Source: a virus. From it: 60,134 nucleotides of DNA. This document shows, piece after piece, positions 5,473-52,809 of the stretch. The translations under genes were made by a program, and so were the position numbers. Every line of letters starts with the position of its first letter. Within the stretch, counting starts at the first letter, position 1. Where the stretch lies: the IMG/VR virus record IMGVR_UViG_3300028025_004184, positions 1-60,134 of that record; one strand, written 5' to 3'. The notes beneath the pieces were generated by a model. The model searched no databases, was not told the DNA's origin, and was given only the letters and a program-made list of their open reading frames with translations.

Positions 5473-5727
5473 ATGAAAAAGAAAAGATGGTCTAGCTTAA
5501 AAGAAAAGCTTTCTTGTAATAGTCCGAAGAGAACCTCTGGCGAAAATAAGTCTTGGGTTGTTAAGGGTTGTGAAGGCGGAGAAGAGAAGATCGTAAGATT
5601 TGGCGATCCTAACATGCCAGATAAGTCATATGTCGCAGAACGTAGAAAAAATTTTCGTGCTCGCCACAACTGTGACGAGAAAAAATCAAAACTTAAGGCT
5701 GGTTACTGGTCTTGTAAAAAGTGGTAA
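5473..5727 (+). CDS. Conserved phage head-region protein, 84 residues
   Basis: Basic protein with VVKGCEGGEEKIVRFGDPNM (about residues 29-48) and RRKNFRARHNCDEKKSKLKA, ending YWSCKKW. This pattern (VxKxGxKVIRFGD...RAKSFRARH...YWSxKxW) is a recurrent small protein of unknown function near portal and terminase genes in many phages. Family placement from memory. Confidence 0.75.
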   Translation: MKKKRWSSLKEKLSCNSPKRTSGENKSWVVKGCEGGEEKIVRFGDPNMPDKSYVAERRKNFRARHNCDEKKSKLKAGYWSCKKW

Positions 5728-5730
5728 TCA

Positions 5731-6540
5731 ATGTCTAGTGTAAGAAAAAAAGCTCTTGAAGATTTTGCTAAAGATGTGGAAAGAGGGATACCTCTAGCAG
5801 AGGATTACGTTGGAAAAACAGGCGATATTTATGATGACGCACTTCGAGCTAGAAATTTAGCGGAAGAATCATTGGCTCAAAAAGTATTGGATAATACTTC
5901 TATACCTATTCCGGATAGAAACGCTCCATTGTCTAAAAAAGAAGACTTCCTAAATCAAATGCTGCAAGGTCAGTACCCAGAATTAAAAAAGCAAGTGCAA
6001 TTTAAAGATATGCAGGGTAATCTTGGGTTATATGATAAAGGTAATATATATCTTAATAAAGAAATGGCAAAAAATAGAAGCCCTCAAAAATTAGTGGCCG
6101 ATACTTTCCATGAAGGCGGTCACGCATACGACGATGTTAAAAAACTTGTAACTCCTGATCAAGTTGAGGATTTTAATAAAGAACTTAGAAAATTAAAAGC
6201 TTCCGGCTTTGATTTAAAAAATGCTGATCCAGCGCAGATATATGAACTTATTGCCAATAAGCATCATGCTCAAGTACCAAATTTACGTGAAGGTACTTTT
6301 GGTCTAGGTGCTCTTAAGTCATATCTAAAGTCTGGCACATTTAAAGCTTTACCATTCGTTGGTCCAGCAATTGGTGCAGCTGCTGCCTTATCTTCTGGAG
6401 ACGCATCTGCTGCAGTTCCAATTCTTTCAGAGGCTGAGTCTTTAGGCCCTGAAAAAGGTTCTGAAGATTATGAGATTGAGAATCCACAAAGAAATCCAGA
6501 AGCTAGACGAGCTGCTTTAGAAAAGTTAATGAGGAAGTAG
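5731..6540 (+). CDS. Zinc-metallopeptidase-like protein with virion-type C-terminus
   Basis: 269 residues. Helical N-terminus. The central domain has a zinc-peptidase motif HEGGH at 127-131 (FHEGGHAYDD) and a following E172 in YELIANKHH that could be the third ligand. Residues 206-232 form a segment of small and hydrophobic residues (LPFVGPAIGAAAAL, then SGDASAAVPILSEAESLG), and the protein ends ARRAALEKLMRK. Both this segment and the tag recur in the next two genes. Stop and next start are 1 base apart. Probably carried in the virion and delivered with the DNA, by inference. Substrate unknown. Confidence 0.75.
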   Translation: MSSVRKKALEDFAKDVERGIPLAEDYVGKTGDIYDDALRARNLAEESLAQKVLDNTSIPIPDRNAPLSKKEDFLNQMLQGQYPELKKQVQFKDMQGNLGLYDKGNIYLNKEMAKNRSPQKLVADTFHEGGHAYDDVKKLVTPDQVEDFNKELRKLKASGFDLKNADPAQIYELIANKHHAQVPNLREGTFGLGALKSYLKSGTFKALPFVGPAIGAAAALSSGDASAAVPILSEAESLGPEKGSEDYEIENPQRNPEARRAALEKLMRK

Positions 6541-6541
6541 C

Positions 6542-7630
6542 ATGGCAGAAGATAATGTAGGAAAGAAACTATTAAAACAAACTGATGTTCTAAATAAAGA
6601 TACTTCAGCAAAAATTCAAGCATTAAAAGAAATAAGAAATACTCAAGATTTTAAATATGGAAATTTAGCAAAAGCTTTAAAAGAAGAAATTTTAAATACA
6701 ATTCCAGAAGGATCTATTACAGCTAAAGATTTTTCTAAAATTGATAAAGCTATTAAAGAAATCCCAGAAAATGAAATTCTAGATCTGTATAATAGATTTA
6801 CAAGTTTGCCGGATGAAGAAAGACGTAAATATAGAATAGGTTCTGGGGCTTTCAAAAACGCTTATCAATTACCAGATTCTGATATTGTACTTAAAACTAG
6901 TCCGGCAGAGAAAAATCTTAATATTTTAGAAAAAGATTATTTAACTCATAAAATTACAAACAAACTTGGAAAAAGAGGAGATATAGAAACTCCTATGCTT
7001 GTAAAATCTCCAGATAAAGAGGCAGTTTTAATGCAGAGGAGACTTGTAACCCCTGATGATATTTTAAAATTTAAGAACGCCGCTGGAGATTCTGGAATAA
7101 CTAAAATTAATCCAGAATTTTATGATAAAGCTTCTTTTGGTGGAGGACTTCAAGGAGAGATAGATAATTTAATTAAGGGATATACACCAACTTCTATGCC
7201 AGAAGATGTCCATGCAGGAAATGTAGGAATAGATCCAGTTACAAATAAAATGAAAATTTTTGATACTTTAGGCTCTGTAGATGCGATGGATGTTGTAGAA
7301 AAAAAAGCTACTAGACTTTCTAATATACTTAATAATTTAAAGAAACCTACTATTTATCGCTCAATTCCTATCATTGGTCCAGCTGCTGGATTAGGACTAG
7401 CTGCTATGTCTGGAGATGCGTCTGCTGGCATTCCTATTTTATCAGAAGCTGACGAATTAGGAAATCCCGATGAAGAAAAAGCAATGCTTCGTGATATTAA
7501 TCAAAAAAATAGAGAGAAGAAAATACTCCAAGCTATTCCAGAACAAAATCGTGTAGCTGTAGAAAAAGATCTAGAGGATCAAAGACTTGGGGTTAGACGT
7601 TCTGCAATAGAGGACTTATTAAGGAAATAA
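6542..7630 (+). CDS. Protein-kinase-like protein with virion-type C-terminus
   Basis: 362 residues. After a helical N-terminus (1-95) comes a kinase-like fold: glycine loop GSGAFKNAY at 100-108, VLK with candidate ATP lysine K118, a catalytic-loop-like DVHAGNVGID at 222-231 (D-x-H-x-x-N as in aminoglycoside phosphotransferase and related kinases) and FDT at 240-242 in the DFG position. Then a GPAAGLGLAAMSGDASAGIP segment (279-298) and the tag RRSAIEDLLRK. N-terminus MAEDN is shared with the next gene. Whether it is active or a pseudokinase cannot be told; the aspartates of loop and metal site are present. Confidence 0.7.
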   Translation: MAEDNVGKKLLKQTDVLNKDTSAKIQALKEIRNTQDFKYGNLAKALKEEILNTIPEGSITAKDFSKIDKAIKEIPENEILDLYNRFTSLPDEERRKYRIGSGAFKNAYQLPDSDIVLKTSPAEKNLNILEKDYLTHKITNKLGKRGDIETPMLVKSPDKEAVLMQRRLVTPDDILKFKNAAGDSGITKINPEFYDKASFGGGLQGEIDNLIKGYTPTSMPEDVHAGNVGIDPVTNKMKIFDTLGSVDAMDVVEKKATRLSNILNNLKKPTIYRSIPIIGPAAGLGLAAMSGDASAGIPILSEADELGNPDEEKAMLRDINQKNREKKILQAIPEQNRVAVEKDLEDQRLGVRRSAIEDLLRK

Positions 7631-7631
7631 T

Positions 7632-8414
7632 ATGGCAGAAGATAATAAAAAAAATAGTTTAGCGTCATTAGCAGCATATTCAGCTGCTCTTAGAGAATTA
7701 TATGATTCTACCCCGGACAGATTAAGCAAGGCCTCTGCAGGAGAATTTAGCGATATTATAAATAAAGCTGTAGCAAATGATGCTATGAAAAAAGCTAATA
7801 TAACGCCATATACTCCAGAAGAGTATTCCAAATTCAAAACATTTTTATCAAAGGATAAGGAATCTGGCTATGCTATTAAGCCCGGTTCCATGACTGATGC
7901 CGGTAAGGATGAGTTAATTTCCGTATTTTCTAATAAAAGAGGTAGAGGTCCGGGGATACTAGAACATGCGGTAGATGTCGGAGGAGCTAAGCAATTAGAT
8001 GCTTTTGACATAAACAATAAACTACCTAGCTTATACGGTAAAGAATTTAATGAAACTTATAGATATAAATTTGATCCGCAATACGCCCCTGCTGATTGGA
8101 ATTATGAAAAAGTAGGAACTCCGGATGTTATAGGAATGCAGTTAGATCCAGAAAAAGCTGCTATCAGAACTGGTCGTCAAGTAGGAAAATCTATTGCTAA
8201 ATTTGGACTCCCAGCATTGGCATTAGGTGCGGCATCTGCCTCCGAATCTCCAGAGCAAGCTTTGATGGACATGATAATACCCGGTGGAGTAGAATCTGTG
8301 GGATCTGCAGATGATGATGCTATTATGAGAGGCGAAGCTCAGGGATATAAAAATTATCAAAATAGCCCTGCTGCTAAGGCTAGACGAGCTGCATTAGAAA
8401 AGTTAGGAAAATAA
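7632..8414 (+). CDS. Acetyltransferase-like protein with virion-type C-terminus
   Basis: 260 residues, starting MAEDN like its neighbour. Residues 77-170 (SGYAIKPGS..., ELISVFSNKRGRGPGILEHA, AKQLDAFD, YGKEFNETYRYKFD, YAPADWNYEKVGTPDVI) follow a pattern known from phage polyvalent-type and GNAT-like domains: VFS, a glycine-rich turn, GAxxLDxFD, then LYxKxFxExxR. A hydrophobic stretch (191-204, FGLPALALGAASAS) and the tag KARRAALEKLGK close the protein. The enzymatic assignment is tentative; the C-terminal similarity to the two previous genes is plain. Confidence 0.6.
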   Translation: MAEDNKKNSLASLAAYSAALRELYDSTPDRLSKASAGEFSDIINKAVANDAMKKANITPYTPEEYSKFKTFLSKDKESGYAIKPGSMTDAGKDELISVFSNKRGRGPGILEHAVDVGGAKQLDAFDINNKLPSLYGKEFNETYRYKFDPQYAPADWNYEKVGTPDVIGMQLDPEKAAIRTGRQVGKSIAKFGLPALALGAASASESPEQALMDMIIPGGVESVGSADDDAIMRGEAQGYKNYQNSPAAKARRAALEKLGK

Positions 8415-8433: not shown

Positions 8434-9375
8434 ATGAAAATAAAAAAAATACAAGTACCATACCAGCCTGATTATAATGAACCTACTGAAGTACCCTATC
8501 AGTCTGGGTATAGCATTCCAGTAACATCTAAGAGACTTCCTAGTAAAGAAGATGTTAACTATCTTCAGAATCTAGTAAAAGAAGGAAGAAATCAAGAAGC
8601 TGAGAATTTTATCAATAAAGCGGTCTTACCCTATGAAGTAGAAGGGCTGCATCCGGGAATTTCAACTAGAAACTATATTGCAAATGCACTTCATCAGTCT
8701 ATACTAAATAGAAATCCATACTTAGATAATTATACTCCTGAAGGTCAATCTGCACATTTACCAGATATAGTATATCCCGGATTAAAAGATTTAAAAGAAA
8801 AATTAAATCTTTCTAATGAACTTGAACATCTATACAGCAGCTCTTATACTCCAATTGATTCTAAAGTTCCAAATAGAAAGCCGGGAAGTATAAAACTTGA
8901 TACCATGTCTGATTCTTATCTTGATGACGTATTACATGAATATGCACATTCTGTTGACGACATATTTAATAATGCAAAAAAAGGAAAGTGGAAAGAAGGA
9001 AGTACTGAGCTTAAAGCCATTCAGAATTTTGTTAAAAATAATCCTAAATTGAAAAAACTATATGAGAGTCCTGTTAAAGAAACTACACGAAGGGAAGATA
9101 CACCTCTATCAGCATCTAATATATTTGATAAACAAGAATATTCTCCAATTAGAAGAGTTCCTAATTTTCAAGAATATGATCCTAAAACAGGAGATTTTGG
9201 TTCTGATATTATAGAGTCTCCTATAGATAAGTATAAAGAAGTTGGTGGAGAGCATCATATTGAAAGACCATTCTCTCTTGAGAATTTTAATAATTTTAAT
9301 AGAGGTGATCTTAAAGACATAGTGGATACTCCAGCTCCCTCTAAATTCCCTAAAATAAAGAAATTAATTGGATAA
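8434..9375 (+). CDS. Second zinc-metallopeptidase-like protein
   Basis: 313 residues. HEYAH at 168-172 (DDVLHEYAHSVDDIF) is an HExxH zinc-peptidase motif set in a predicted helix, as in the gene at 5731 (HEGGH). Proline-rich N-terminus with repeated VPYQ (8-11, 20-23). No hydrophobic C-terminal segment and no ARRAALEKL tag; ends FPKIKKLIG. End of the first late block; a new promoter follows immediately. Confidence 0.7.
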   Translation: MKIKKIQVPYQPDYNEPTEVPYQSGYSIPVTSKRLPSKEDVNYLQNLVKEGRNQEAENFINKAVLPYEVEGLHPGISTRNYIANALHQSILNRNPYLDNYTPEGQSAHLPDIVYPGLKDLKEKLNLSNELEHLYSSSYTPIDSKVPNRKPGSIKLDTMSDSYLDDVLHEYAHSVDDIFNNAKKGKWKEGSTELKAIQNFVKNNPKLKKLYESPVKETTRREDTPLSASNIFDKQEYSPIRRVPNFQEYDPKTGDFGSDIIESPIDKYKEVGGEHHIERPFSLENFNNFNRGDLKDIVDTPAPSKFPKIKKLIG

Positions 9376-9445: not shown

Positions 9446-9784
9446 ATGAAAAAATATCTAGACGCTATCCCAGCATCACTTCTATTGATTTTCTCCATAA
9501 TTATTAATTTTAAATCTGAAAGCATAGGTGTAGCAGTTGGCTTAATAGCCTCAGCTTTTCTATTTGGTTATCAACAATATTTGCTTAGAACTGAGCAGCC
9601 TGATATTTTAGGTGAGCTTGAAAAGCTTCGTAAAGAAACTGACGCAAGAGTTTTAAATATCCAAACAAAAGCAGAGACTGAGCTTACTCAACTTCGTGAT
9701 GATGTTGCTAAGTTTAGCTTAACTATGGCCAGAGTTCCGGGAATTATGGAAAGACCTAAAGATAAACCTAAAATACAATTTTAA
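9446..9784 (+). CDS. Membrane protein with cytoplasmic coiled coil, 112 residues
   Basis: Two hydrophobic helices (about residues 8-22 ASLLLIFSIIINF and 28-45 GVAVGLIASAFLFGYQ) followed by a charged coiled coil (PDILGELEKLRKETDARVLNIQ...). Placed just before the terminase genes. A holin-like or head-region role is possible but not shown. Confidence 0.75.
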   Translation: MKKYLDAIPASLLLIFSIIINFKSESIGVAVGLIASAFLFGYQQYLLRTEQPDILGELEKLRKETDARVLNIQTKAETELTQLRDDVAKFSLTMARVPGIMERPKDKPKIQF

Positions 9785-9792
9785 AGGCTATT

Positions 9793-10137
9793 ATGAGCGT
9801 TTATCACGAGTTAGATAATTTAGAAATTGAAAGACTTAGAAAAAAAATTGTAGAGCTTGAGCTAGAGTTATCTAAAGCACATTCTCTTTTACAAGACAAT
9901 GACTTATTTGAAGAATTGCCAAGTACTTCTGACGAAGAGGTAATATGCGTTAACGAGATTCACAAGTTAAGAGTTGCATCAGACAACGGCATTCTTACGC
10001 TAGAAGATGTGAAAATTCTAGACCTTTTAGTTAAGAATTTATTAGCTATTAGAGGTAAGCCAGCTGAAGAAAAGAAAGACAGAAAAAAAGGTGCTAAGAG
10101 TGTAGCTGAGCTTCTTAGCATTGTTGATAAAAAATGA
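9793..10137 (+). CDS. Probable terminase small subunit
   Basis: 114 residues, helical. Coiled coil at the N-terminus (LERLRKKIVELELEL-type), then VNEIHKLRVASDNGILTLED and VKILDLLVKNLLAIR, a pattern seen in small phage terminase subunits, and a basic tail. Its stop overlaps the start of the large terminase gene by 4 bases. Assignment rests mainly on position and size. Confidence 0.55.
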   Translation: MSVYHELDNLEIERLRKKIVELELELSKAHSLLQDNDLFEELPSTSDEEVICVNEIHKLRVASDNGILTLEDVKILDLLVKNLLAIRGKPAEEKKDRKKGAKSVAELLSIVDKK

Positions 10138-11618
10138 GTGAAAAAAAAGAACGACCTATTTCACGAGAAGAAGCTATTACCCAATTATGGGAGCATGGCG
10201 TTCTAGATTATAAACTTACCGAGCCTCAGAAAATAATTAAGAAAGGTATTCTAGAAGATAAGAGTAAGATCAGTGTTGTCATGTGTGCTCGTCGTCTTGG
10301 TAAAAGTTATCTAGCACTTTCCATGGCGATAGAGGCTTGCCTAAAGACTCCAGATACTATTGTCAAATATGTATTCCCTAAACAAAAAGCTGCTAAGAAA
10401 AATATCCTTCCAATTATGAAAACTATTCTAGAGGACTGTCCAAAGTCTCTGCGTCCTGTGTTTATGGCTGCTGATCTTTTGTATAAATTTCCTAATGGTA
10501 GTGAGTTGCAAATGGCAGGTTCTGATAATGGCAACATAGAAAATATTCGAGGTGGTAACTCCAGTTTGAATATCGTAGATGAGGCTGGATTCTGCGATGA
10601 TTTAACATACGCTGTTAGATCAGTATTAGCTCCTACAACTAAGTTAACGCATGGTAGAACTATACTAGTATCTACTCCATCTCGTTACGAAGATCATGAA
10701 TTTGTTCAGGACTGGGCTTTAAAATATCAAGCAGAAGGCCGTATTAGAGTCTTTACTATTTTTGATAACCCACAGTTTACAGAAGCTATTATTAAAGACG
10801 CTCTAGATGATTATCCAGACGGTGAAAAAGATCCCGGATTTCGTCGTGAGTATATGTGTGAGATTGTACGCAGCGCAGATACATCTATTTTACCATCATT
10901 TAGCTCAGATGTTGAAAGAGTAATTGTAAGATCTGACTATCCTAGACCAGTATTCTATGATGCATACGTTTCTATGGATATCGGGGGATCAGATTTAACC
11001 GCTGTAGTTTTTGGGTATTACGACTATCTAAATGCCACTACAGTGATAGAAGATGAGCTTATTTTTGGAAAAGAAGTAAATACTAGGCTAGTTGCTGAAG
11101 CTATAAGAAAAAAAGAAGAAGAGCTTTGGAGAAATTCTATAGATGAGAGCATTATTCCTCCATACCTAAGAATTGCCGATAACAATAACTTAATTATGTT
11201 AACTGACTTACAAAGAGATCACGGTATAACATTCATCCCAACAAGAAAAGATAACAGAGAAGCGGCTATTAATGCACTAGACGTAGGATTATCCCAACAT
11301 AAGGTAATTATTCACCCAAAGTGTACACATACCTTGTATCACATGAAATTTGCAAGATGGGATAAGAATAGAAGAAATTTTCTTAAGCTCAAAGACTCTC
11401 CCTCTGGCCAAATTAAAGGCGGTCACGCAGATGCTCTTGCCGCAATCATATACTTACACAGAAATATTATTAAAAGTAAAAATCCTTATCCAGTTGGGTA
11501 TGGCGATATTTCTGGTTCTGGAGTTTTCGCATCTCAGCTAAAAAAAGATGAGCAAAAAGATAAGTCTATGAAATCTTGGCTTTCTGGTATGGTGTGGAAG
11601 AGGCCTAGCGGTAAGTAA
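10134..11618 (+). CDS. terL: Terminase large subunit
   Basis: 494 residues. The packaging ATPase has a Walker A-like ARRLGKS at 52-58 and Walker B LNIVDE at 145-150. A C-terminal RNase H-fold nuclease follows: SMDIGGSDLT near 285 with the first metal aspartate, and GGHADALAA near 435 with the last. It cuts concatemeric DNA and drives it through the portal. Full length for the family, no odd features. Confidence 0.95.
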   Translation: MSEKKERPISREEAITQLWEHGVLDYKLTEPQKIIKKGILEDKSKISVVMCARRLGKSYLALSMAIEACLKTPDTIVKYVFPKQKAAKKNILPIMKTILEDCPKSLRPVFMAADLLYKFPNGSELQMAGSDNGNIENIRGGNSSLNIVDEAGFCDDLTYAVRSVLAPTTKLTHGRTILVSTPSRYEDHEFVQDWALKYQAEGRIRVFTIFDNPQFTEAIIKDALDDYPDGEKDPGFRREYMCEIVRSADTSILPSFSSDVERVIVRSDYPRPVFYDAYVSMDIGGSDLTAVVFGYYDYLNATTVIEDELIFGKEVNTRLVAEAIRKKEEELWRNSIDESIIPPYLRIADNNNLIMLTDLQRDHGITFIPTRKDNREAAINALDVGLSQHKVIIHPKCTHTLYHMKFARWDKNRRNFLKLKDSPSGQIKGGHADALAAIIYLHRNIIKSKNPYPVGYGDISGSGVFASQLKKDEQKDKSMKSWLSGMVWKRPSGK

Positions 11619-41059: not shown

Positions 41060-43441
41060 ATGGGAATGCGTTCAAATACAAATCAAGTTGGTCAAGGAAT
41101 GGGCACAGCCCTGACTGAGGAAGAAAAGAGAAAGCAGGAACAAGAACAAGCTCCACAGCCTCAAATCCAACAAACAACATCCGCAGCTCCTCGCATCGGA
41201 GAAGCTCAGGCAACAGCCATGAAAGCGGCTCCAAAAGAGCAGAAAGCTGGAACTGGTACTTTCGCTAATCTTAAAAGTTATATACAGGCTGCTCAGGGCG
41301 GAGGTCAGCAAAGAATTGCTCAGGCCGCAACGCAAAAAGTTCAGAATGTGGCAACTGGTGCTCAGAAGGGTATCCAGCAAGCTCAGAACGTATTTGGAAA
41401 AAAAGTAGAGGCAGGAAGTTTGTCTGGAATAGCTGCTCCGGGAGGAGTAGAGGCGGTTGGAAAAGAAGCCCAAGATATTATTAACGCAGCTAGAAAGGTT
41501 ACATATCAAGCTCCACAGCCAGCTACTGCACCTGCTACTCAGGCCACGGCTCCTGCCACAACAGCTGCAACAGCTCCTTCAGGTGAACAACCACAGCAGT
41601 CAGTTGTAGAACCCACAGTTGCTCAAGCTCAACAGTATTTTACTCCAGAACAGCAAAAGCGTTTTGCAGACATTATTAACGCACAATATGGTGGCCCAGC
41701 ATCTTTACAAGAAGCTGGACTTTATAGCGACATTGCTAAAAAAGCCAGAACAGCTCAAGAAGCAATTGGTCAAACTCAGACAGCCGCTGGAAGAGAGCAG
41801 TTGTTAAGAAATATCTTCAGCCAAGGTAGAGATTATACTAGAGGGCAATCTAAGCTAGATGCTTTACTTTTAAACACATCTCAGCAAGGTGTTGGAGAAT
41901 TACAGAGTCAGGCAAAGCAAGCAGGTAACATTCAGCAGCAAGCAGAACAAGCGCAGACACAATCTGCAAATGAAGCAGCTCAGAGAGCTAAAGAAATTTC
42001 AGATGTGCAACAAGCTTCTAGAAAAGCATTTTTAGAAGGTAGAACTGCTGAAGAAGCAGCTACTGAAACTAGAATGGACAAGCTTATAAAAGATCCAGCA
42101 TTAGATGCTTCTGGAAATAAAATACCTAAACTAGATATGGAAGGAAAGCCTATAGTAGATGCAGCTGGTAATCCAGTTTATCAAACTCAGTGGGACCAGC
42201 TTCCAGAATATTTTAGAGATATTATTAGAAATAAAGAAGCTAATAACAAAGCTATGCAAGCAGAGGCGTTTGCAAATTTAGACTCGTCAACTGGACTCAA
42301 TGAAGCAGGATATAAAAAAGCTCAGGCTAATCTCAAGGCTCAGCAAATAGCATTAGAAAATGCTAAAAATATTAATATGTATAGAGCTATAGGTGGATTG
42401 GCTCCTGATGAAAATGTGGATGAAAAAATTAAAATAGCTCAGCAAAATTTAGATGCTGCAAAATCTGACTTAGCTGGCTACTCAGATTATTTAAAACAGC
42501 GTAAAGATATCCAGAATATGAGCATGAAGCAGCTTAGATTAAGCCCTGAAGAAGCGGCTATTCTGGGGGTATCTTCTGGTGAAGGATTTTATAATGAACT
42601 GCCAACATTAATAAAAGACGTTAACGCAGAAAGATCAAGATTAATTACAAAAGATGAATTTGCTAGACAACAAGCATTAGCACAGTTAGCAGGTACAGAT
42701 ATTTCAAGAGCTTTACAAAAAGATTTAATGTACACAGACGCAGAAAAAGCAGGATCTCAGACATTAAGTAGTTCTTTAGATACTCAAGCAATAAGAAACG
42801 CTCTTAATGAAGCACAAACAAAATTTAAAGAAAGTGCAGAGGCCGCTAATTTAACTGGAAGTGGTAAAAAGAAAGTGTCCAGAGGTAACTGGGCGGGAAC
42901 AAGAACTAAAACATATACAGCTTCACAAGAAGGTAATGTTGCAGATATGTTGCGTCAAGCAGGATATGATGTTTCTGCAGAAAGTCCTGAAGCAGCTAAA
43001 TCATTGCTAACAGATAAAGAAGCTTTAGCTAATTATTTAGGAGCAACAGATACTTCTAGAGGAGATTCTGGGAGTATGTGGGCAGAAGGTGCTGCAAGAA
43101 CAGGAACAGGAGCTGCTATAGGAGCTGCTCTTGGATCATATGTTCCGGTTATAGGAACAGGTGTAGGAGCCGCTATAGGTAGTATGTATGGATCTATTCT
43201 TGGAGGAAATTCTACTCTTTCTAATGTAGTAGGAAATCTAGGTGGAGGTAGAATGAGTGATTCTGCCATGGCAGAAGTAGGTAAAGGTACTGCGAAAGAA
43301 TTAGCAATAAAAGATTTATATAATAAATATAATAAATATTTAGCTGGACAAGGATTTGAAAATAGAGCTAATATAGTAGACTCTGATATTACATCAGCTA
43401 GATCTGCTGCGCTTCAAGATTTATTACGTAGACAAGGCTAA
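41060..43441 (+). CDS. Internal virion protein (ejection protein), tagged C-terminus
   Basis: 793 residues, rich in Q and A, helical, with coiled coils. A glycine-zipper hydrophobic region (TGAAIGAALGSYVPVIGTG, then VGAAIGSMYGSILGG; about 680-715) could insert in membranes. The end RSAALQDLLRRQG resembles the tag of the proteins at 5731, 6542 and 7632. Position after the nozzle and composition fit a protein stored in the capsid and ejected with DNA. Confidence 0.75.
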   Translation: MGMRSNTNQVGQGMGTALTEEEKRKQEQEQAPQPQIQQTTSAAPRIGEAQATAMKAAPKEQKAGTGTFANLKSYIQAAQGGGQQRIAQAATQKVQNVATGAQKGIQQAQNVFGKKVEAGSLSGIAAPGGVEAVGKEAQDIINAARKVTYQAPQPATAPATQATAPATTAATAPSGEQPQQSVVEPTVAQAQQYFTPEQQKRFADIINAQYGGPASLQEAGLYSDIAKKARTAQEAIGQTQTAAGREQLLRNIFSQGRDYTRGQSKLDALLLNTSQQGVGELQSQAKQAGNIQQQAEQAQTQSANEAAQRAKEISDVQQASRKAFLEGRTAEEAATETRMDKLIKDPALDASGNKIPKLDMEGKPIVDAAGNPVYQTQWDQLPEYFRDIIRNKEANNKAMQAEAFANLDSSTGLNEAGYKKAQANLKAQQIALENAKNINMYRAIGGLAPDENVDEKIKIAQQNLDAAKSDLAGYSDYLKQRKDIQNMSMKQLRLSPEEAAILGVSSGEGFYNELPTLIKDVNAERSRLITKDEFARQQALAQLAGTDISRALQKDLMYTDAEKAGSQTLSSSLDTQAIRNALNEAQTKFKESAEAANLTGSGKKKVSRGNWAGTRTKTYTASQEGNVADMLRQAGYDVSAESPEAAKSLLTDKEALANYLGATDTSRGDSGSMWAEGAARTGTGAAIGAALGSYVPVIGTGVGAAIGSMYGSILGGNSTLSNVVGNLGGGRMSDSAMAEVGKGTAKELAIKDLYNKYNKYLAGQGFENRANIVDSDITSARSAALQDLLRRQG

Positions 43442-43443
43442 GA

Positions 43444-43800
43444 ATGTCAAGTTTATACGCTCAATTTGTTAAAGAAACTGTTAATTGGGACACTTTAGAA
43501 GACGAAGACAGCTTTACAACTTATGAGATTCAGTCTGTTGGTCCAGTTAAGTGTTTAAAAGTTATAGAGATGTATGTTGCTCCATATGCTAGAGGTAAAG
43601 ATAAGTGGAGAGATTTAATGATTAAAATTGAAGAAATTGCCAGACAAGAAAAATGTAAGACAATTTCTGCACAGATAAGTAAAAGTACTTCAGAATTTAC
43701 ACAACAAAGAACTGCGCACTTATGCAGGTTGTTTGGAATGCAACATTCGTATGAAGATGTATATCAGATAGTTTATAATAGAGGTGTCAAATATGAGTAA
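43444..43800 (+). CDS. Internal virion protein with GNAT-like fold (T7 gp13-like)
   Basis: 118 residues. IEMYVAPYARGKDKWRDLMI-type segment (the A-x-x-x-R/G-x-G-like acetyl-CoA loop is poorly kept), then IEEIARQEKCKTISAQI and HLCRLFGMQHSYEDVYQIVY as in GNAT C-terminal strands. T7 gp13, a small protein in the same genome place, is of the same type. Catalysis doubtful. Confidence 0.6.
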   Translation: MSSLYAQFVKETVNWDTLEDEDSFTTYEIQSVGPVKCLKVIEMYVAPYARGKDKWRDLMIKIEEIARQEKCKTISAQISKSTSEFTQQRTAHLCRLFGMQHSYEDVYQIVYNRGVKYE

Positions 43801-44653
43801 GAACGCTGGAAAAAGTGAAATGTCAGATGCTACAGCATTGATGCGAGATAACATAGCTCGTCTTGAGGCAATCGGCATTCCTACCATAGAAGCTCAAAAA
43901 ATTGCACTACAAAGTCCAGAGTTAGTAGGATTATTAGAAGCTGAGCAGTTGGGACCATCTGCCATGCAGGGAGTTCAAGAAGATCCTAGACTTAAAGCAG
44001 CTCAAATGGCAGTTTTAGAGGAATATGCTAATACTGGAAATAGAGGTGGATTAGATGCTGCATCAAGACTTAATATAGAACAAGGATTAGGAAGAGTAGC
44101 AGGATCTGAACAGGCTAGGCTTCAAACTATCGAAGAAGATCCTACTTTAGGTCAAGGTCAGAAATTAGCCCTTAAAGAGAAGGCAATACAAAATGCTGGT
44201 CAGGCTGGAAGAGATATTGCATTACAAACAGCTGCTCAAGCTCAACAAGCTAAAATGGCAGCATTAGGACAACAAGGAAGTATGGCCTCTCAAATGTCTC
44301 AACAACAACTTGCATTAGCTGGACAAAAGGCTTCTGCAGCAGACGTTATAAATCAGTTTAATACACAAAACAGACAAAATACAAATCAATTTAATGCTCA
44401 AAATAGAATTGCAACACAAAGAGGAACAGAGGCTACAAAAAATCAACAACAACTTTATAATACAGGACTTATTCAGCAGCAATTTCAAAATGAAATGGCA
44501 AGAGCTACGGGAATCACCGGTCAACAATCTAATCTTGCTAATTTATATGGACAACAAGCAGCCTCAGCTCAACAAGCTCAACAAGCTCAGACAGGAGCAC
44601 TACTTAACTTAGGTGGTACACTTGGAGCAGCAGCTTTAACAAAAGGGAAGTAG
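43784..44653 (+). CDS. Internal virion protein (T7 gp14-like), 289 residues
   Basis: Helical, Q/A-rich (MASQMSQQQLALAGQKA, NQFNAQNRIATQRG) with a short hydrophobic end (LLNLGGTLGAAALTKGK). Composition, size and place match channel-forming ejection proteins such as T7 gp14. Overlaps the previous gene by 17 bases. Confidence 0.7.
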   Translation: MSNMSKNAGKSEMSDATALMRDNIARLEAIGIPTIEAQKIALQSPELVGLLEAEQLGPSAMQGVQEDPRLKAAQMAVLEEYANTGNRGGLDAASRLNIEQGLGRVAGSEQARLQTIEEDPTLGQGQKLALKEKAIQNAGQAGRDIALQTAAQAQQAKMAALGQQGSMASQMSQQQLALAGQKASAADVINQFNTQNRQNTNQFNAQNRIATQRGTEATKNQQQLYNTGLIQQQFQNEMARATGITGQQSNLANLYGQQAASAQQAQQAQTGALLNLGGTLGAAALTKGK

Positions 44654-44654
44654 T

Positions 44655-45926
44655 ATGGCAATGTTTCCATTTATAAAAACAGAAGAAGATGATAACTTAT
44701 TGCAGGAAATTCCTCAGTCTCCAAGCTATGAAGATTCTATTAGAGGAATAGCTGGATACCAACCAGAAGAAGCTCCAATGGCTTCTACTTCTCCAGACAT
44801 TACAACTGCACCAACTGCACCAACTGCTCCAACTAAACTAGCTGATCTGTTGCCAGCAAAGGCTGAAACTGATACGTCAAAAACTCCAGAAGCTCCTATG
44901 TCTGCTCAAGATAAGCTATTGAAAGAGTACTTACAGTTATTTGGTAAAGATACAACAGATGAGTTGAAGTCTGCTAGAGATCGTGATAGGATGCTTAAGA
45001 TAGGCGGATCTATCGGAGATGCACTAGCTACTTACATTAATGCACAGGGACAAATGAATGCTAAGGTTCCGGGAGTACAGGTTCAGCAAGGTGCTGGATT
45101 AGGGAAAGTGGCTGATATGTTTGCCACAGCTCCGGAGATTCAAAGCGATATTGCTACTAGAAGAGAAGCTTTGATGAATCAATATAAGCAATTAGCTATG
45201 CAACAAATGTCTGAAGCAAAAAGAGAATCAGCTGCTAAAATTGCAGAAAATAGAAATAAAACAATACTAGAAGCAGCTCAAATTGGTGCAAGTGGAAGAA
45301 GTGATTTAGCTGAAATAGGCAGAGAAAATAAAAAAAATGAATTAATTGATAAAAATACTATAAAATTAAAGTCAGATCTTACTGAATCTCAAGCGGTAGC
45401 TACAACTATCTCTAATGTAGAGAAGTTACTAGGGTTTAATTTAGATGATGTAGATTTAGAGACAGGTACAGTTAAAGGAAAACCTGTAGATATTCCGGGA
45501 GTTAATATTCCCGGTAAAGGCAGGACTACTTTTTACTCTTCAGCAGCTAGAGAACTTGATGATACTATGAGCAACCTTTTTAACGTAGAATTAAAAAATA
45601 GATCTGGTGTTTCAGTTACTCCTCCAGAATTACAAGCACTAAAAAAAGAATTTAGTGAGGGTAAATTTAATACCGAGGAAGAAAAATTAAAAGCATTAAA
45701 AAGATTTAAACAAGCTCTTAAGACAGCCTTCAGAAATATAGAAGCTGGATATTCAAAAGAAGTGATTTCTGAATATCAAGATAGAGGGGGATTTACATCT
45801 GATAGACTTGGTAAAACTTCTGAAAAAACAACTAAAAAGGCTGCTGCAGGAGATATAGTTACTGTAAAAGGTAAAAAATATAAAGTTGCAGAAGATGGCG
45901 ATTCTTTAATTCCAGTAGGTCAATAA
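44655..45926 (+). CDS. Internal virion protein, 423 residues
   Basis: Proline/threonine-rich linker near residues 45-75 (TAPTAPTAPT), then helices with QYKQLAMQQMSEAKRESAAK, and a KOW-like end (AGDIVTVKGKKYKVAEDGD) preceded by NIEAGYSKEVISEYQDRGG. Overlaps the next start by 1 base. Part of the ejection cluster by position and composition. Confidence 0.65.
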   Translation: MAMFPFIKTEEDDNLLQEIPQSPSYEDSIRGIAGYQPEEAPMASTSPDITTAPTAPTAPTKLADLLPAKAETDTSKTPEAPMSAQDKLLKEYLQLFGKDTTDELKSARDRDRMLKIGGSIGDALATYINAQGQMNAKVPGVQVQQGAGLGKVADMFATAPEIQSDIATRREALMNQYKQLAMQQMSEAKRESAAKIAENRNKTILEAAQIGASGRSDLAEIGRENKKNELIDKNTIKLKSDLTESQAVATTISNVEKLLGFNLDDVDLETGTVKGKPVDIPGVNIPGKGRTTFYSSAARELDDTMSNLFNVELKNRSGVSVTPPELQALKKEFSEGKFNTEEEKLKALKRFKQALKTAFRNIEAGYSKEVISEYQDRGGFTSDRLGKTSEKTTKKAAAGDIVTVKGKKYKVAEDGDSLIPVGQ

Positions 45927-48049
45927 TGAAATTATCCGAATTAAATGAAAACGAATATGAAATAGAAACTCCAAAGAATGAAGAAGCTCCTCTTTCTTTG
46001 TCATCGTTGTCTGATAGTGATTATGAGATAGAAAGTCCAACTGAATCAAAAGAAACTTTACCGGAAGATGAAGTAACAGCACCTGCAATTGGGTATTTAG
46101 CTGGAAAAGCAACTCAGAGAGGTATTGAAAAAACTGGAGAATACGCCGAAAAAGGCTTAGAAAAAATAGCTCAAATGGGAGGAACTTCTCCAGAGCAACT
46201 TAAAGTTATTAAAGAAAATTTTCCAGCATTTAAAAATACAGATCCAATACAAGAGATGAATGATCTTTTAGCTCAAGCTAGAGGAACAAATACTAATATT
46301 AATGAAATGTACCAACAAGCTGAAAAGTTATTAGCTGATAAAAAAATAACTCCAGATCAATATAAAAATATAGTTCAAAATGCCATACTAGAAAGAGATG
46401 AATATGGTCAGCGAACATTTGCTAAACCTATATCTCAAAGTGAAATAAATAAAGCAGATACTAAAGTTTTAAATGATTTAAGAAAAGAAGCTGTTATAAA
46501 AGAACAAAAAATGTTAGATGAATTTGCTAAATTAAAAGCAGATGAAGCTATAAAAACAGCAGATTTTAATTATAAAATAACAAATGCTACAGATCAGCAA
46601 TTGCCAAGAAATATTGAATCTGAAATAAGAAAAAATACTATAGATAAAATTAAAACTAATCCACAAGAATTTGGTTTTAAAGGACTAGAGTCTGAGATTT
46701 TAGGAGATTATGATACTAGAATAAGTAAAGAAATTGCAGCACTACAGACTCCTTTAGCAAAAGAATTTCCATCATTACAAGGTAAATCTATAGTTCCAGC
46801 GGAAGAACGTGCTTTTCAAAAAATACTAAATATGCCTAGTAAGGCAGATATTTCTGGTAATAGATTACAAGAAATGTTAAGAGAATTTAGAGATCGTGGA
46901 TTTACAGAGCAAGGTCAGTTAAGTGAAAAGCCAGCGGTAGCAACAGCAACTCAAGTAAGAAAAAAAATATCAGAACTTTCTCCTGAAGCTGGAAGATTGA
47001 TGGAAGCTGAAAATGTTGAATTATCTAAACTAGAAGCTTTAGAAAATGCAGGATATATAAAAAGAGTTGGCGAAGGTACTAAAACAACAATTGATATGCC
47101 AGACTCTCAAATAAATAATATGGTTAAAGATCTAGCTACTTCTTATGATAAAGCTAGTCCAACAAATGTTATAGAAAATATAGAAGTTTTAAAAAAGTAT
47201 TTACCAGAAAATAAATTTAAGAAACTCCAAATAGCTGCATTAAAATTAGCAGAAAAGAAGGATGGAGGAATTGGTTATGTTAACGCTAATATAATCAATC
47301 AAATACTACAAAGTATAACTACTAGAAGCGTATCTAGAGCAGTTGCTACTTTACCCGAAGCTGTTAGTAATATGTTACCTAAAACTACAATGGTAGCAAA
47401 AGTTATAGGAAAAGGTGCGCTTAAAGCACTTCCAGCGGTAGGAGCCGGGATTGGTGGAATTGCCGCACAAGCTGCTGAAGAAGCTCTATCTCCAGAGACA
47501 TCAGGAGCACTACCTACAGAAGTAGAAACAGAAGATAGAAGAAATGCTCCAATCCCAGTAAATCCACAAGAAGCAGATAGAATTAAATCTACCTATTGGT
47601 TTGAAAAAGGATATACCCCAGAAGAACAAGTTCAAAAAGCAAGACTTGCCAGCTTTAGACAAGAGCTTCCAGATCAAGGTAGAATGGATGAAATGCCATC
47701 TCCTTACGCAAAGCCTGAAGTTAAGCAATATAAAGAACAAGTATTAGCTGCTAAAAAAGCAGGAGCATTGGCTCCAACTTATGTAGAAGCCCCTCTTAAG
47801 CAAGTTTTAAAAGCTGATAGTCCAGCTGAGATCTCATCTATTGCTCAGTCTATGCAAACTATGCCAGACAAAGCTTCGCAAGAGTATAGTCGTGTATTAA
47901 GCCAAATTGTTGATGCCCCAGCTTCTCAGAAGGAAGCTGTACTATTTGGATTAAATCAGCAACCAGCTTTCAGAGAGTTAGTGCGTAAACTTAAAGATCA
48001 GCAAAAGACAGAAGAAGAAACACCCTTAATGTTAAAAGGCCCTGCTTAA
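45926..48049 (+). CDS. Large internal virion protein, 707 residues
   Basis: Mostly helical and charged. A hydrophobic glycine-rich stretch KGALKALPAVGAGIGGIAAQ (about 492-511) resembles the segment KALPFVGPAIGAAAAL of the protein at 5731. The C-terminal 180 residues have WFEKGYTPEEQVQKARLASF. No lysozyme or transglycosylase motif seen. Last gene of the ejection cluster. Confidence 0.7.
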   Translation: MKLSELNENEYEIETPKNEEAPLSLSSLSDSDYEIESPTESKETLPEDEVTAPAIGYLAGKATQRGIEKTGEYAEKGLEKIAQMGGTSPEQLKVIKENFPAFKNTDPIQEMNDLLAQARGTNTNINEMYQQAEKLLADKKITPDQYKNIVQNAILERDEYGQRTFAKPISQSEINKADTKVLNDLRKEAVIKEQKMLDEFAKLKADEAIKTADFNYKITNATDQQLPRNIESEIRKNTIDKIKTNPQEFGFKGLESEILGDYDTRISKEIAALQTPLAKEFPSLQGKSIVPAEERAFQKILNMPSKADISGNRLQEMLREFRDRGFTEQGQLSEKPAVATATQVRKKISELSPEAGRLMEAENVELSKLEALENAGYIKRVGEGTKTTIDMPDSQINNMVKDLATSYDKASPTNVIENIEVLKKYLPENKFKKLQIAALKLAEKKDGGIGYVNANIINQILQSITTRSVSRAVATLPEAVSNMLPKTTMVAKVIGKGALKALPAVGAGIGGIAAQAAEEALSPETSGALPTEVETEDRRNAPIPVNPQEADRIKSTYWFEKGYTPEEQVQKARLASFRQELPDQGRMDEMPSPYAKPEVKQYKEQVLAAKKAGALAPTYVEAPLKQVLKADSPAEISSIAQSMQTMPDKASQEYSRVLSQIVDAPASQKEAVLFGLNQQPAFRELVRKLKDQQKTEEETPLMLKGPA
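48015..48036 (+). promoter_or_regulatory. Possible late promoter element inside the preceding gene
   Basis: AAACACCCTTAATGTTAAAAGG with the CACCCTTA core at 48018-48025, 34 bases before the start at 48059. Match downstream of the core is poor and an 8-base core is expected about once or twice by chance in the window. Confidence 0.4.
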
Positions 48050-49566: not shown

Positions 49567-49669
49567 ACTTTTCCTCCATGCCACTATAAAGTTTGTGACA
49601 TGCCAAAAATCCTAGCATGAAGAAAAGGAAAGCACAACATATAAAAGTTCCCCAAGTCATATCTTTCAT
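49517..49669 (-). CDS. 50-residue membrane protein overlapping the next gene
   Basis: Starts in the stop of the upstream gene (ATGA). One hydrophobic helix (TFICCAFLFFMLGFLACH, residues 8-25) with cysteines, then a polar tail that is encoded over the first 50 bases of the following gene in another frame. Overlapping membrane-protein pairs are typical of spanins, but no lipobox is clear (FLAC is imperfect). Confidence 0.6.
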   Translation of the reverse strand: MKDMTWGTFICCAFLFFMLGFLACHKLYSGMEEKYDIPDLRRNNTSLHGS

Positions 49670-50217
49670 GATCCTACAATCCAATGTTTTTCATTAGCTT
49701 TATACTTCGGAAGTTCTTCTTGCTCAAATAAAGCCTTATCTAAAAACCTAATTCTATACTGTGGATAAAGCATAAGATAGCCATCATTTGTCTGAATGGC
49801 GTGTAACTGTTTCCAGTGAGTAGGGTGGCGAGAAAACCCCTCTCCAACAAAATCTATAGTAAAAAGATACTTTCCAGACTTGGCTGGTATCATATCAGGC
49901 TTAACTTCACACTCAGCGTACCTAAGAGTTTCCATAACAAAAAAGTCAATGTCATCGCTTACACAGTCCCACATCTGAGCGTCTTGAAGGTTTATAAGCC
50001 CATTAAACTCGTCCTCTCTAAAGGTTATGGCATGTGCCGGTAGTCCAGTAAAAAGAGCACCATTGTCCAATAAAATGCTAAATTGCAAAGCTTGGTTTTG
50101 TCTAGCCCTTACAGACACTAAATGTCCAGCCGTTTTGCCATAGAAGTTAGAGTCATCATTAAATAAGAACCTATTCCAAACATACACACGAATTGGAGGC
50201 AAGTTAGCGTTACTCAT
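49666..50217 (-). CDS. Conserved phage protein of unknown function, 183 residues
   Basis: ATG at 50217 overlaps the ClpX-like gene stop by 4 bases (ATGA). Begins MSNANLPPIRVYVWNRFLF, a start seen in conserved proteins of other large phages (NLPPIRVYVRxxYLY...), with LDNGALFTGLPAHAI and LINLQDAQMWDCVSDDI following that pattern (family from memory). The coupling to the ClpX-like gene suggests a partner or substrate adaptor, inferred. Confidence 0.75.
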   Translation of the reverse strand: MSNANLPPIRVYVWNRFLFNDDSNFYGKTAGHLVSVRARQNQALQFSILLDNGALFTGLPAHAITFREDEFNGLINLQDAQMWDCVSDDIDFFVMETLRYAECEVKPDMIPAKSGKYLFTIDFVGEGFSRHPTHWKQLHAIQTNDGYLMLYPQYRIRFLDKALFEQEELPKYKANEKHWIVGS

Positions 50218-51143
50218 CCCCAAACCCACTTAGGTTTACCACTCAACACTACCATAGAGTCTAGCGTGAATTGTTTTGGTTTAATCGCTAAGCTAGGGGC
50301 CTCAAACTGAGCGTTTAGCAAAGCTTCATCCAGTACACTGTGTAAGCCCCTAGCTCCTAATCCCTTCTCAATAGCCTTCTGCGCTATGATGTTAATAGCA
50401 CTATCTTCTACCACAAGCTCAATACCTTCGCTCAAAAACCACTCTTTAAACGAGTTTAGAATAGACCCCTTAGAGTCACGTAGGATCTTCCTGTAATCGT
50501 CAAATTTAAGCTCCTGAAGCTGTGTGATAACCGGGAATCTTCCAAGAAACTCAGGTATCATGCCAAAGTCCGTTAAACTCTGCACACTTGACGACTCTAG
50601 CCCTATAAAAGCACCAGAGCATATAAACATAATATCTTTAGTGTTCATCTTCTTATCATACTCGCCATTCTGAGAGTATTTAGAAATATATGGAACATCA
50701 CTACCTTCCAGTAGTTTTAGAAGTGACTGCTGCACTCCAAGACCATTAACATCTGGTCCATTTCCGTCATTAGATTTTTTACGAAGCTTATCTATCTCAT
50801 CGATGTATATAATAGACTTTGAGGCCTTATACTCGTTGCCTTCGCATATACCCAGTAAGTCTGTTATAAGTTCTTCTACACTTCTTCCCTGATATCCAGA
50901 GGAAGTGAACTGAGTTGCGTCACTTGTCAAAAAGTTAACGCCTAGTATTTGAGCCAGTATGGACACTAGATATGTCTTGCCACACCCAGTAGGTCCGATT
51001 AATAGCACGTTAGACTTTTTAATAGTACTGCCGTTCATTCTTTTAAAATGGTTATAAGCGGCCACAGACAAGGCTCTTTTAGTTTTCTCATGACCGATAA
51101 CGTACTCATCTAGCTGCTTTTTAATTTCTTCTGGAGTTTTCAT
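50214..51143 (-). CDS. ClpX-like AAA+ unfoldase lacking the ClpP-docking loop
   Basis: 309 residues. Clear ClpX homology: TPEEIKKQLDEYVIGHEKTK start, Walker A GPTGCGKT (50-57), pore loop GYQG (83-86, GYVG in ClpX), Walker B IIYIDE (111-116), GVQQSLLKLLEGS, arginine finger in PEFLGRFPV (R202), sensor 2 GLGARGLHSVLDEAL. It has no N-terminal zinc domain, the RKH loop is replaced (NGEYDKK), and the stretch that carries the IGF loop for ClpP binding is gone: only about 10 residues lie between GAFIGLE and FGMIPEFLG. So it probably remodels proteins without feeding ClpP. Confidence 0.9.
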   Translation of the reverse strand: MKTPEEIKKQLDEYVIGHEKTKRALSVAAYNHFKRMNGSTIKKSNVLLIGPTGCGKTYLVSILAQILGVNFLTSDATQFTSSGYQGRSVEELITDLLGICEGNEYKASKSIIYIDEIDKLRKKSNDGNGPDVNGLGVQQSLLKLLEGSDVPYISKYSQNGEYDKKMNTKDIMFICSGAFIGLESSSVQSLTDFGMIPEFLGRFPVITQLQELKFDDYRKILRDSKGSILNSFKEWFLSEGIELVVEDSAINIIAQKAIEKGLGARGLHSVLDEALLNAQFEAPSLAIKPKQFTLDSMVVLSGKPKWVWG

Positions 51144-52038: not shown

Positions 52039-52809
52039 TTAAAAAGTCAAACTAACTTTTTTGTTTCTTACTTCAATAAACTTTCTAGCATGTGAGAAGT
52101 TTTCTTTCTTAACATCTCTAGAGAACTTGATATCAATAGGAGCTGGAAGCAATGGACATGCCGAGAACACTACATTAATGATACCGAATGGAGTAGAAAC
52201 TTCTTCTGTGATCTCATCTTCAATAAGAGCTTTATCACATGTAACATCAGCTACTTGATCAGCTTGTCCAGTTTTTACAGCGTTCTCTCCAAAGCTCCAA
52301 AGCTCATTAACGATAGAGGCTTCGTAGTCTTTTAGAGGAATACCGATTCGTTTAGCAGCAGCTTTGTTCATGCCAGACAATACTTGATGAATTAGATCAA
52401 GTCTAGAATCTAGTTCTCCGGGAACTTGCCCAGACAGTCCTGAGATTGCACCTCTGTGACTCATCAATGTTCCAGATGGAGTGATGTATCGAATACCGAG
52501 TTGCTGAACTACTTGATAGCCCATAGATGCAGCTGATAGTGTAATTGTGTGAACAGGAATCTTTAGTGACTTAATTGTATCAATAAATCTTAGACCGTCC
52601 GCAACAGATCCACCCGGAGTGTCTAGAACTAAATAAAGCTTATTTGAAGACGTAGACTTAGCAAATACTTCCATGATCTTTTTAGCAACATACAGTCCAG
52701 TAAATGGCTGGTTAAAAACTACACTATTATCTTTAGTAAGTGTAATTTGTGCATTTTTAGCGAAGGCAGTATTGCAAATTAAAGCAATAATCATAATTAA
52801 TTTTAACAT
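52039..52809 (-). CDS. ClpP-like serine protease with export signal
   Basis: 256 residues. Signal peptide: K3, hydrophobic IMIIALICNT, AFA cleavage site before K18. ClpP/crotonase fold: PGGSVADG (65-72) oxyanion loop, nucleophile S95 in SAASMGYQ, H118 in LMSHRGAISG. At the usual third triad position (RDxFMS in ClpP) there is N168 in VNELWSFGE, so the acid seems to be missing. It lies in the same operon as the ClpX-like gene but would be outside the cytoplasm after export. Substrate unknown; periplasmic host protein degradation or lysis support are options. Confidence 0.85.
   Translation of the reverse strand: MLKLIMIIALICNTAFAKNAQITLTKDNSVVFNQPFTGLYVAKKIMEVFAKSTSSNKLYLVLDTPGGSVADGLRFIDTIKSLKIPVHTITLSAASMGYQVVQQLGIRYITPSGTLMSHRGAISGLSGQVPGELDSRLDLIHQVLSGMNKAAAKRIGIPLKDYEASIVNELWSFGENAVKTGQADQVADVTCDKALIEDEITEEVSTPFGIINVVFSACPLLPAPIDIKFSRDVKKENFSHARKFIEVRNKKVSLTF

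Follow-up and report, generated by a model that had tools for sequence, protein, structure and literature searches.

Three cassettes with different heads and related tails

A row of adjacent genes ahead of the terminase gene was analyzed in IMG/VR virus record IMGVR_UViG_3300028025_004184, a 60,134-bp stretch that is referred to here as the window and was read as a tailed phage of bacteria. Three consecutive open reading frames (ORFs), starting at positions 5731, 6542, and 7632 and encoding proteins of 269, 362, and 260 amino acids (aa), each combine an enzyme-like N-terminal head with a C-terminal tail. We named these genes A, B, and C, and the gene that follows them D. An earlier note on this DNA had proposed different heads on related tails for the three ORFs, and this was borne out: the coordinates hold, the segments it quoted are present, and the tails align as described below.

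In the tail of A (6343..6540, +), a hydrophobic Gly/Ala segment and an acidic linker precede the basic C-terminal tag, ARRAALEKLMRK (6502..6537, +). In the B tail (7328..7630, +), which has an additional segment of about 25 aa, the hydrophobic segment is followed by AMLRDI..NREKKIL..EQNR..KDLEDQRLG and the terminal tag VRRSAIEDLLRK (7592-7627, +). The C tail (8196..8414, +) has a short hydrophobic stretch, the motif AMDMxIPGGxESxG, and the terminal tag ARRAALEKLGK (8379-8411, +). By BLASTP with composition adjustment, the A and B tails were 38.8% identical over 80 aa (E = 4.6e-11), and the possibility raised earlier that the likeness is one of composition alone thus does not apply to this pair. 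Within the window, only the last 19 aa of C matched A (63% identity, E = 0.06), and the DNA encoding the C tag was identical to that of the A tag at 26 of 27 bases (96%). Residues 189-258 of C, which lie in its tail, matched a tail in the related phage L028 at 52% identity (E = 2.7e-7), there borne by a different protein. Together, the A/B protein alignment, the C tag DNA match, and the L028 match indicate that the common tail is real for all three ORFs. What the note had called one C-terminal module is, judging from these alignments and those given below, several recombining tail variants; the tails are related but do not form a single module. The hydrophobic segment that it had described is present, but only moderately hydrophobic, with best 19-residue Kyte-Doolittle means of 1.0-1.65.

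The head of A (5731..6342, +) is an HExxH zincin-like domain (motif at about 6109-6123) of a family that we designated M1. H127, E128, and H131 of the motif and a downstream YE (E172) were invariant in five homologs. Its predicted core had predicted local distance difference test (pLDDT) scores of 78-89, with a topology that fits the three-stranded sheet and helices of zincins, and zincins ranked first when the core was compared with the PDB (selecase, SprT-type protease, and PprI, E > 0.1; best fold matches all E > 0.06). The invariant HExxH and the weak zincin fold match support a metallopeptidase-like head. HExxH is common to the proteins of M1, of a second family, M2, and of gene D, and a distant relationship among them is possible (probabilities 5-13%); M1 and M2 are therefore called different families and not proven unrelated folds.

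The head of B (6542..7327, +) appears kinase-like by its motifs: a glycine loop, VxK, a conserved glutamine, DxHxxN, and a later Asp, all invariant in two divergent homologs. These motifs resemble the reduced kinases described in polyvalent proteins (PMC5512222). Searches of Pfam, PHROGs, and NCBIfam returned nothing significant for A and B, and a sequence search of solved structures returned nothing useful.

The head of C (7632..8195, +; domain core about 7728-8147) matched the profile of phrog_2563 (1e-10) and aligned with annotated phage 'acetyltransferases' (down to 1e-11), including those of Streptomyces phages, and is on that homology acetyltransferase-like, of the GNAT type. One of the Streptomyces phage homologs is encoded a few genes away from an OCR-like antirestriction gene. 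In Microbacterium phage Caron a homologous domain forms the C-terminal part of gp4, a MuF-type (VG15) minor capsid protein, and in Limnohabitans phage DC33 another lies inside a 3125-aa LPD22/ART-PolyVal protein. The likeness drawn earlier to polyvalent proteins split into single domains thus holds for C, in that giant polyvalent proteins, as well as a MuF fusion, contain its head domain. A profile of the C-head domain was found in 154 viral contigs versus 3 bacterial contigs (84,980 genomes), the degenerate patterns used for the two scans differing slightly. In 71 of the 80 best viral loci (L051-L130) the domain lay within an open frame of at least 1000 aa, a fraction that may be biased since these loci were the closest to the Caron query. 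The phrog_2563-type acetyltransferase domain, common in giant phage proteins, has no Pfam match of its own and would suit a new family.

Exchange of heads and tails in a variable slot

Relatives were retrieved via the head of A, via the tails, and via the terminase; each scan of viral contigs relied on two, or a few, short patterns. Every relative is an uncultured contig, and some of these contigs sample one and the same virus; with L001, L002, and L003 counted once, and L019 and L020 likewise, there are seven distinct slot genotypes of one phage lineage. Gene order was the same throughout: an 84-aa phrog_7595 gene (5473..5727, + in the window; E = 7e-15), one to four slot genes, a gene for a 112-aa protein with a hydrophobic N-terminal stretch (9446..9784, +), and the terminase. 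The phrog_7595 gene, which is common in marine phages, was the left neighbor in all related loci that reach that far, and the 112-aa gene is the conserved right border. The region between them is a cassette slot whose contents differ across the seven genotypes. L001 carries an M1 zincin-like protein and a kinase; L009, an M2 HELSH protein and a small protein; L010 and L028, M1 alone; L020, M1, a GNAT, and a small protein; L021, M2 and a small protein; and the window, A, B, C, and D. The phrog_7595 neighbor was considered as a member of the system and rejected, as it is also found near the terminase in phages without the slot. A search of 50,697 phage records gave no direct DNA match for A-C and no match for B, the T1 tail, or the T3 tail (tail types are defined below), and scans of viral contigs with the short patterns of B alone and of C alone found no relatives. 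The nearest isolate terminase, that of a Silvanigrella phage (30%), had no comparable slot in the stretch that was read. Gene D (8434..9375, +), encoding an HEYAH protein, had no relative in the eight related records searched and is possibly a distant member of the same zincin group as M1 and M2.

Four tail types, T1 to T4, were told apart by eye from alignments, with T1 on A, T2 on B, and T4 on C. T1 was found on M1, kinase, GNAT, and M2 heads, T2 on kinase and M1, T3 on M2 and M1, and T4 on M1 and on the GNAT-like head of C; each type was thus present on at least two heads, and M1 bears all four. In L001, the kinase has a tail that matches that of A (63% identity, E = 1e-24), and the metallopeptidase has one that matches the end of the T2 tail of B (65% identity, E = 2e-21). 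By these alignments, the A and B tails of the window are swapped in L001. Such swapping between relatives strengthens the earlier view of different activities on one common tail.

Exchange was also seen at the DNA level. Nucleotides 1-669 of L010-M1 were 92.5% identical to L001-M1, with which the gene is unrelated beyond that point, and from nucleotide 666 to 1137 the match (91% identity) was instead to the L009-M2 tail, the L009-M2 head having no detectable DNA similarity. The L010 locus is a clean DNA chimera with a breakpoint within a few bases. The terminase genes of L010, L001, and L009 are 95-97% identical, indicating that the exchange was recent. L021-M2 and the L020 GNAT likewise shared 84% DNA identity that was confined to the last 195 bp.

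A terminal tag shared with a candidate ejection protein

All slot genes run in line with the genes for the terminase large subunit (10134..11618, +), which is on the same strand, and the P22-type portal (11683). We built a position-specific matrix of the tag from slot proteins only (ARRAALEKLMRK and its kin) and scored it on the window ORFs of at least 60 aa. Outside the slot genes, the sole standout was a 793-aa glycine-zipper protein (41060..43441, +), a candidate ejection or internal virion protein, whose C terminus, ARSAALQDLLRRQG (43397-43438), scored 23.9 bits. Shuffled ORFs gave maxima of 11.5 +/- 2.0 (highest of 200, 17.6). Homologs of the 793-aa protein in four relatives had the tag at the same place, and among 2089 ORFs of other loci no C terminus scored above 11.1 bits.

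The tag codons also serve a second purpose. Slot genes abut, with one or two bases between them, and internal cassettes have an AGGA-type site in their last codons, as in TTA AGG AAA TAA t ATG. In the window, the last codons of the A tag contain a Shine-Dalgarno-like AGGAAG (6532-6537) for the gene starting at 6542, and the B tag contains AGGAAA (7622-7627) ahead of the next ATG. Cassettes at the end of the slot (in L020, L021, and L028), where such a site is not needed, finish with CTT AAG/AAA AAA TAA (or TAG); there the AGGA site is lost and L-K-K is kept, so that a ribosome-site role would explain the choice of codons and not the retained basic residues. When the ribosome-site columns were removed from the matrix, the 793-aa protein was still the top non-slot ORF, at 17.1 bits.

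The gene for the 793-aa protein lies just upstream of three genes encoding 289, 423, and 707 aa (43784..48049, +), whose place and size order would correspond to an ejection triad of the P22/epsilon15 type; protein sizes for this comparison were taken from Table 1 of PMC8954989. A segment of the 707-aa protein, KALPAVGAGIGGIAA, was considered as kin of the hydrophobic segment of the tails, and at E = 0.18 no homology is claimed. Between the 793-aa gene and the triad, a 118-aa GNAT-like gene (43444-43800) is kept in those relatives whose stretch was read and may encode another packaged enzyme. Elsewhere in the window are a scaffold candidate (15019), a ferredoxin-like auxiliary gene (49666-50229, -; phrog_3704, 7e-27), and a ClpP-like or head-maturation-protease-like gene (52039-52809, -; phrog_133, 1e-10), the last near an AAA-type gene (50214) and outside the structural block.

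Possible virion loading and comparison with known systems

That a conserved candidate ejection protein ends in the tag, and that the slot genes run in line with packaging and structural genes, lends indirect support to the suggestion in the earlier note that the tail is a targeting signal for capsid loading. These data suggest that the tail may bring changeable enzymes into the virus particle, from which they would be injected. We consider it slightly more likely than not that the slot encodes exchangeable effectors that are loaded into virions and injected, their C-terminal tag acting, by analogy, like the capsid-targeting sequence of T4. Each cassette would join an N-terminal enzyme domain to a C-terminal trafficking tail whose Gly/Ala segment is mildly hydrophobic, whose linker is acidic, and whose terminal tag is basic and amphipathic. 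The genes would be expressed late, along with the packaging and structural genes, and the tag would dock each enzyme onto a partner (portal, scaffold, or ejection core) that also takes up the 793-aa protein, so that the enzymes would be packed together with the ejection proteins. During infection they would pass into the host alongside the DNA and, in the manner of T4 Alt and internal proteins, act on host proteins by modifying or cleaving them. Heads and tails would be swapped by recombination within the tail DNA repeats, and cassettes could be strung in any order since the tag codons also hold the ribosome-binding site of the next gene. A more specific form of this proposal, which we regard as plausible though somewhat short of an even chance, is that the slot proteins and a structural ejection protein have in common a tag that directs loading into the capsid or the ejection core. 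The slot would then be a plug-in injection platform in which any enzyme head that recombination joins to the tail is loaded into virions, with the ribosome-binding site for the plug-in that follows provided by the same DNA. Beyond T4 and a few model phages, little is known of the way in which short-tailed phages bring non-structural proteins into their heads. A tail that acts as a loading signal would provide a sequence handle for finding injected effectors and a docking partner to test, either the 793-aa protein or the site where it binds; it would also be a natural case of effector sets made diverse by swapping enzyme heads and delivery tails.

Several observations weigh against virion loading of a tagged enzyme set. 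With the reduced tag, shuffled maxima were 11.7 +/- 1.9 (highest of 300, 18.3) against the 17.1 bits of the 793-aa protein, and homologs of that protein in the relatives scored only 10-14 bits. Given this shrunken margin and these scores, the shared tag is good, not overwhelming, evidence. Part of the terminal conservation may serve translation of the next gene. The 793-aa protein had no informative database homolog, and its place, size, and composition are what point to an ejection or internal role. Gene D has no tail, the small slot protein (129-136 aa) has the tag and not the hydrophobic part, and T3 ends differently, in NRIKALQDLKxQG. As to the heads, the zincin fold matches of A were not significant, and the AlphaFold2 model of the B head had a pLDDT of 38.

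The hydrophobic part of the tail could instead anchor late enzymes to the inner membrane of the already infected cell. There they would help to time lysis, exclude superinfection, or block membrane-linked defense, and they would never be packaged. In every tailed head the most hydrophobic stretch does lie in the tail, with basic residues before it and acidic ones after it, and an AxA-like motif follows it in most T1 and T4 tails. The Kyte-Doolittle maxima are nevertheless mostly under the usual threshold for a membrane span, the small slot protein bears the tag with no hydrophobic segment at all, and membrane anchoring leaves the tag on the 793-aa protein unexplained; we consider it unlikely. 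That tag also speaks against a tail that forms complexes or binds a chaperone, for example to hold toxic enzymes inactive or to join them in one complex, with no loading into virions. A short amphipathic C-terminal helix common to adjacent co-directed genes, predicted at the end of A, would suit such a module, but the set of heads and the homology of the C head point to delivered effectors, and among the alternatives with a functional tail this one seems the more improbable.

The tail might also matter mainly as DNA, as a recombination seam with an embedded Shine-Dalgarno sequence, its protein sequence having no common role. The spacing of one or two bases, the AGGA-type sites of internal cassettes, and the 26 of 27 bases shared by the A and C tags are what this would predict. 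Slot-terminal cassettes, however, drop the AGGA site and retain L-K-K, RRAAL is kept under different codons (AGACGA and CGTCGT), tails have 60-65% protein identity at 73-78% DNA identity, and the tag recurs in a distant gene. We judge this account improbable, only slightly less so than complex formation. That the similarity is merely one of Ala/Gly-rich, basic composition could be argued from the weak match between C and A alone (E about 0.06); for A/B and the relatives it is refuted, since their protein and DNA alignments are significant and end sharply, and we give it almost no weight overall.

Virion loading of the tailed enzymes, the reading that we prefer, has a parallel in the internal proteins of T4. 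Ip1-Ip3 and Alt are non-homologous, are encoded at variable loci, and have only a short targeting peptide in common; the internal proteins are packed, injected, and act on host defense, blocking different type IV restriction enzymes, and their sets differ among related phages (PMC9026906, PMC12373910). Like them, the slot proteins have non-homologous bodies that share one short conserved terminal peptide. In T4, however, that peptide is N-terminal and is removed by the prohead protease, whereas the slot tail lies at the C terminus, is longer and in part hydrophobic, and is not known to be cleaved. T4 internal proteins are packaged; the proposed packaging of the slot proteins would take place in a phage with a P22/SU10-type portal. 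With the shared peptide at the opposite end, the slot proteins are, by sequence, not members of the T4 internal-protein family.

Polyvalent proteins (PMC5512222, Iyer et al. 2017) contain the same kinds of domains, namely zincin-like peptidases, reduced protein kinases, and GNATs. The C head occurs inside such giants with LPD22 and ART-PolyVal, and A and B are likened to them by motifs or a weak fold match. Polyvalent proteins have at least two conflict domains per chain, whereas each slot ORF has one recognizable head, its own gene, and its own tail, and no LPD domains were detected in A, B, or C. As single-domain chains, the slot proteins are thus, as far as their sequences can tell, not polyvalent proteins in the strict sense. 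MuF polymorphic toxins (PMC5576092) likewise place a variable effector domain on a common virion-linked part, and the MuF-type gp4 of phage Caron has the C-head domain at its C terminus. The polarity is opposite, the common part being C-terminal in the slot, where several cassettes stand in a row, and A, B, and C had no Pfam MuF or VG15 match; lacking a recognizable MuF domain, they are not MuF toxins. The ejection proteins of podoviruses, such as P22 gp7, gp20, and gp16 (PMC8954989), are brought to mind by the tagged 793-aa protein, which adjoins genes sized like such a triad. They are conserved conduit proteins, whereas the slot proteins are enzyme-like, smaller, and variable.
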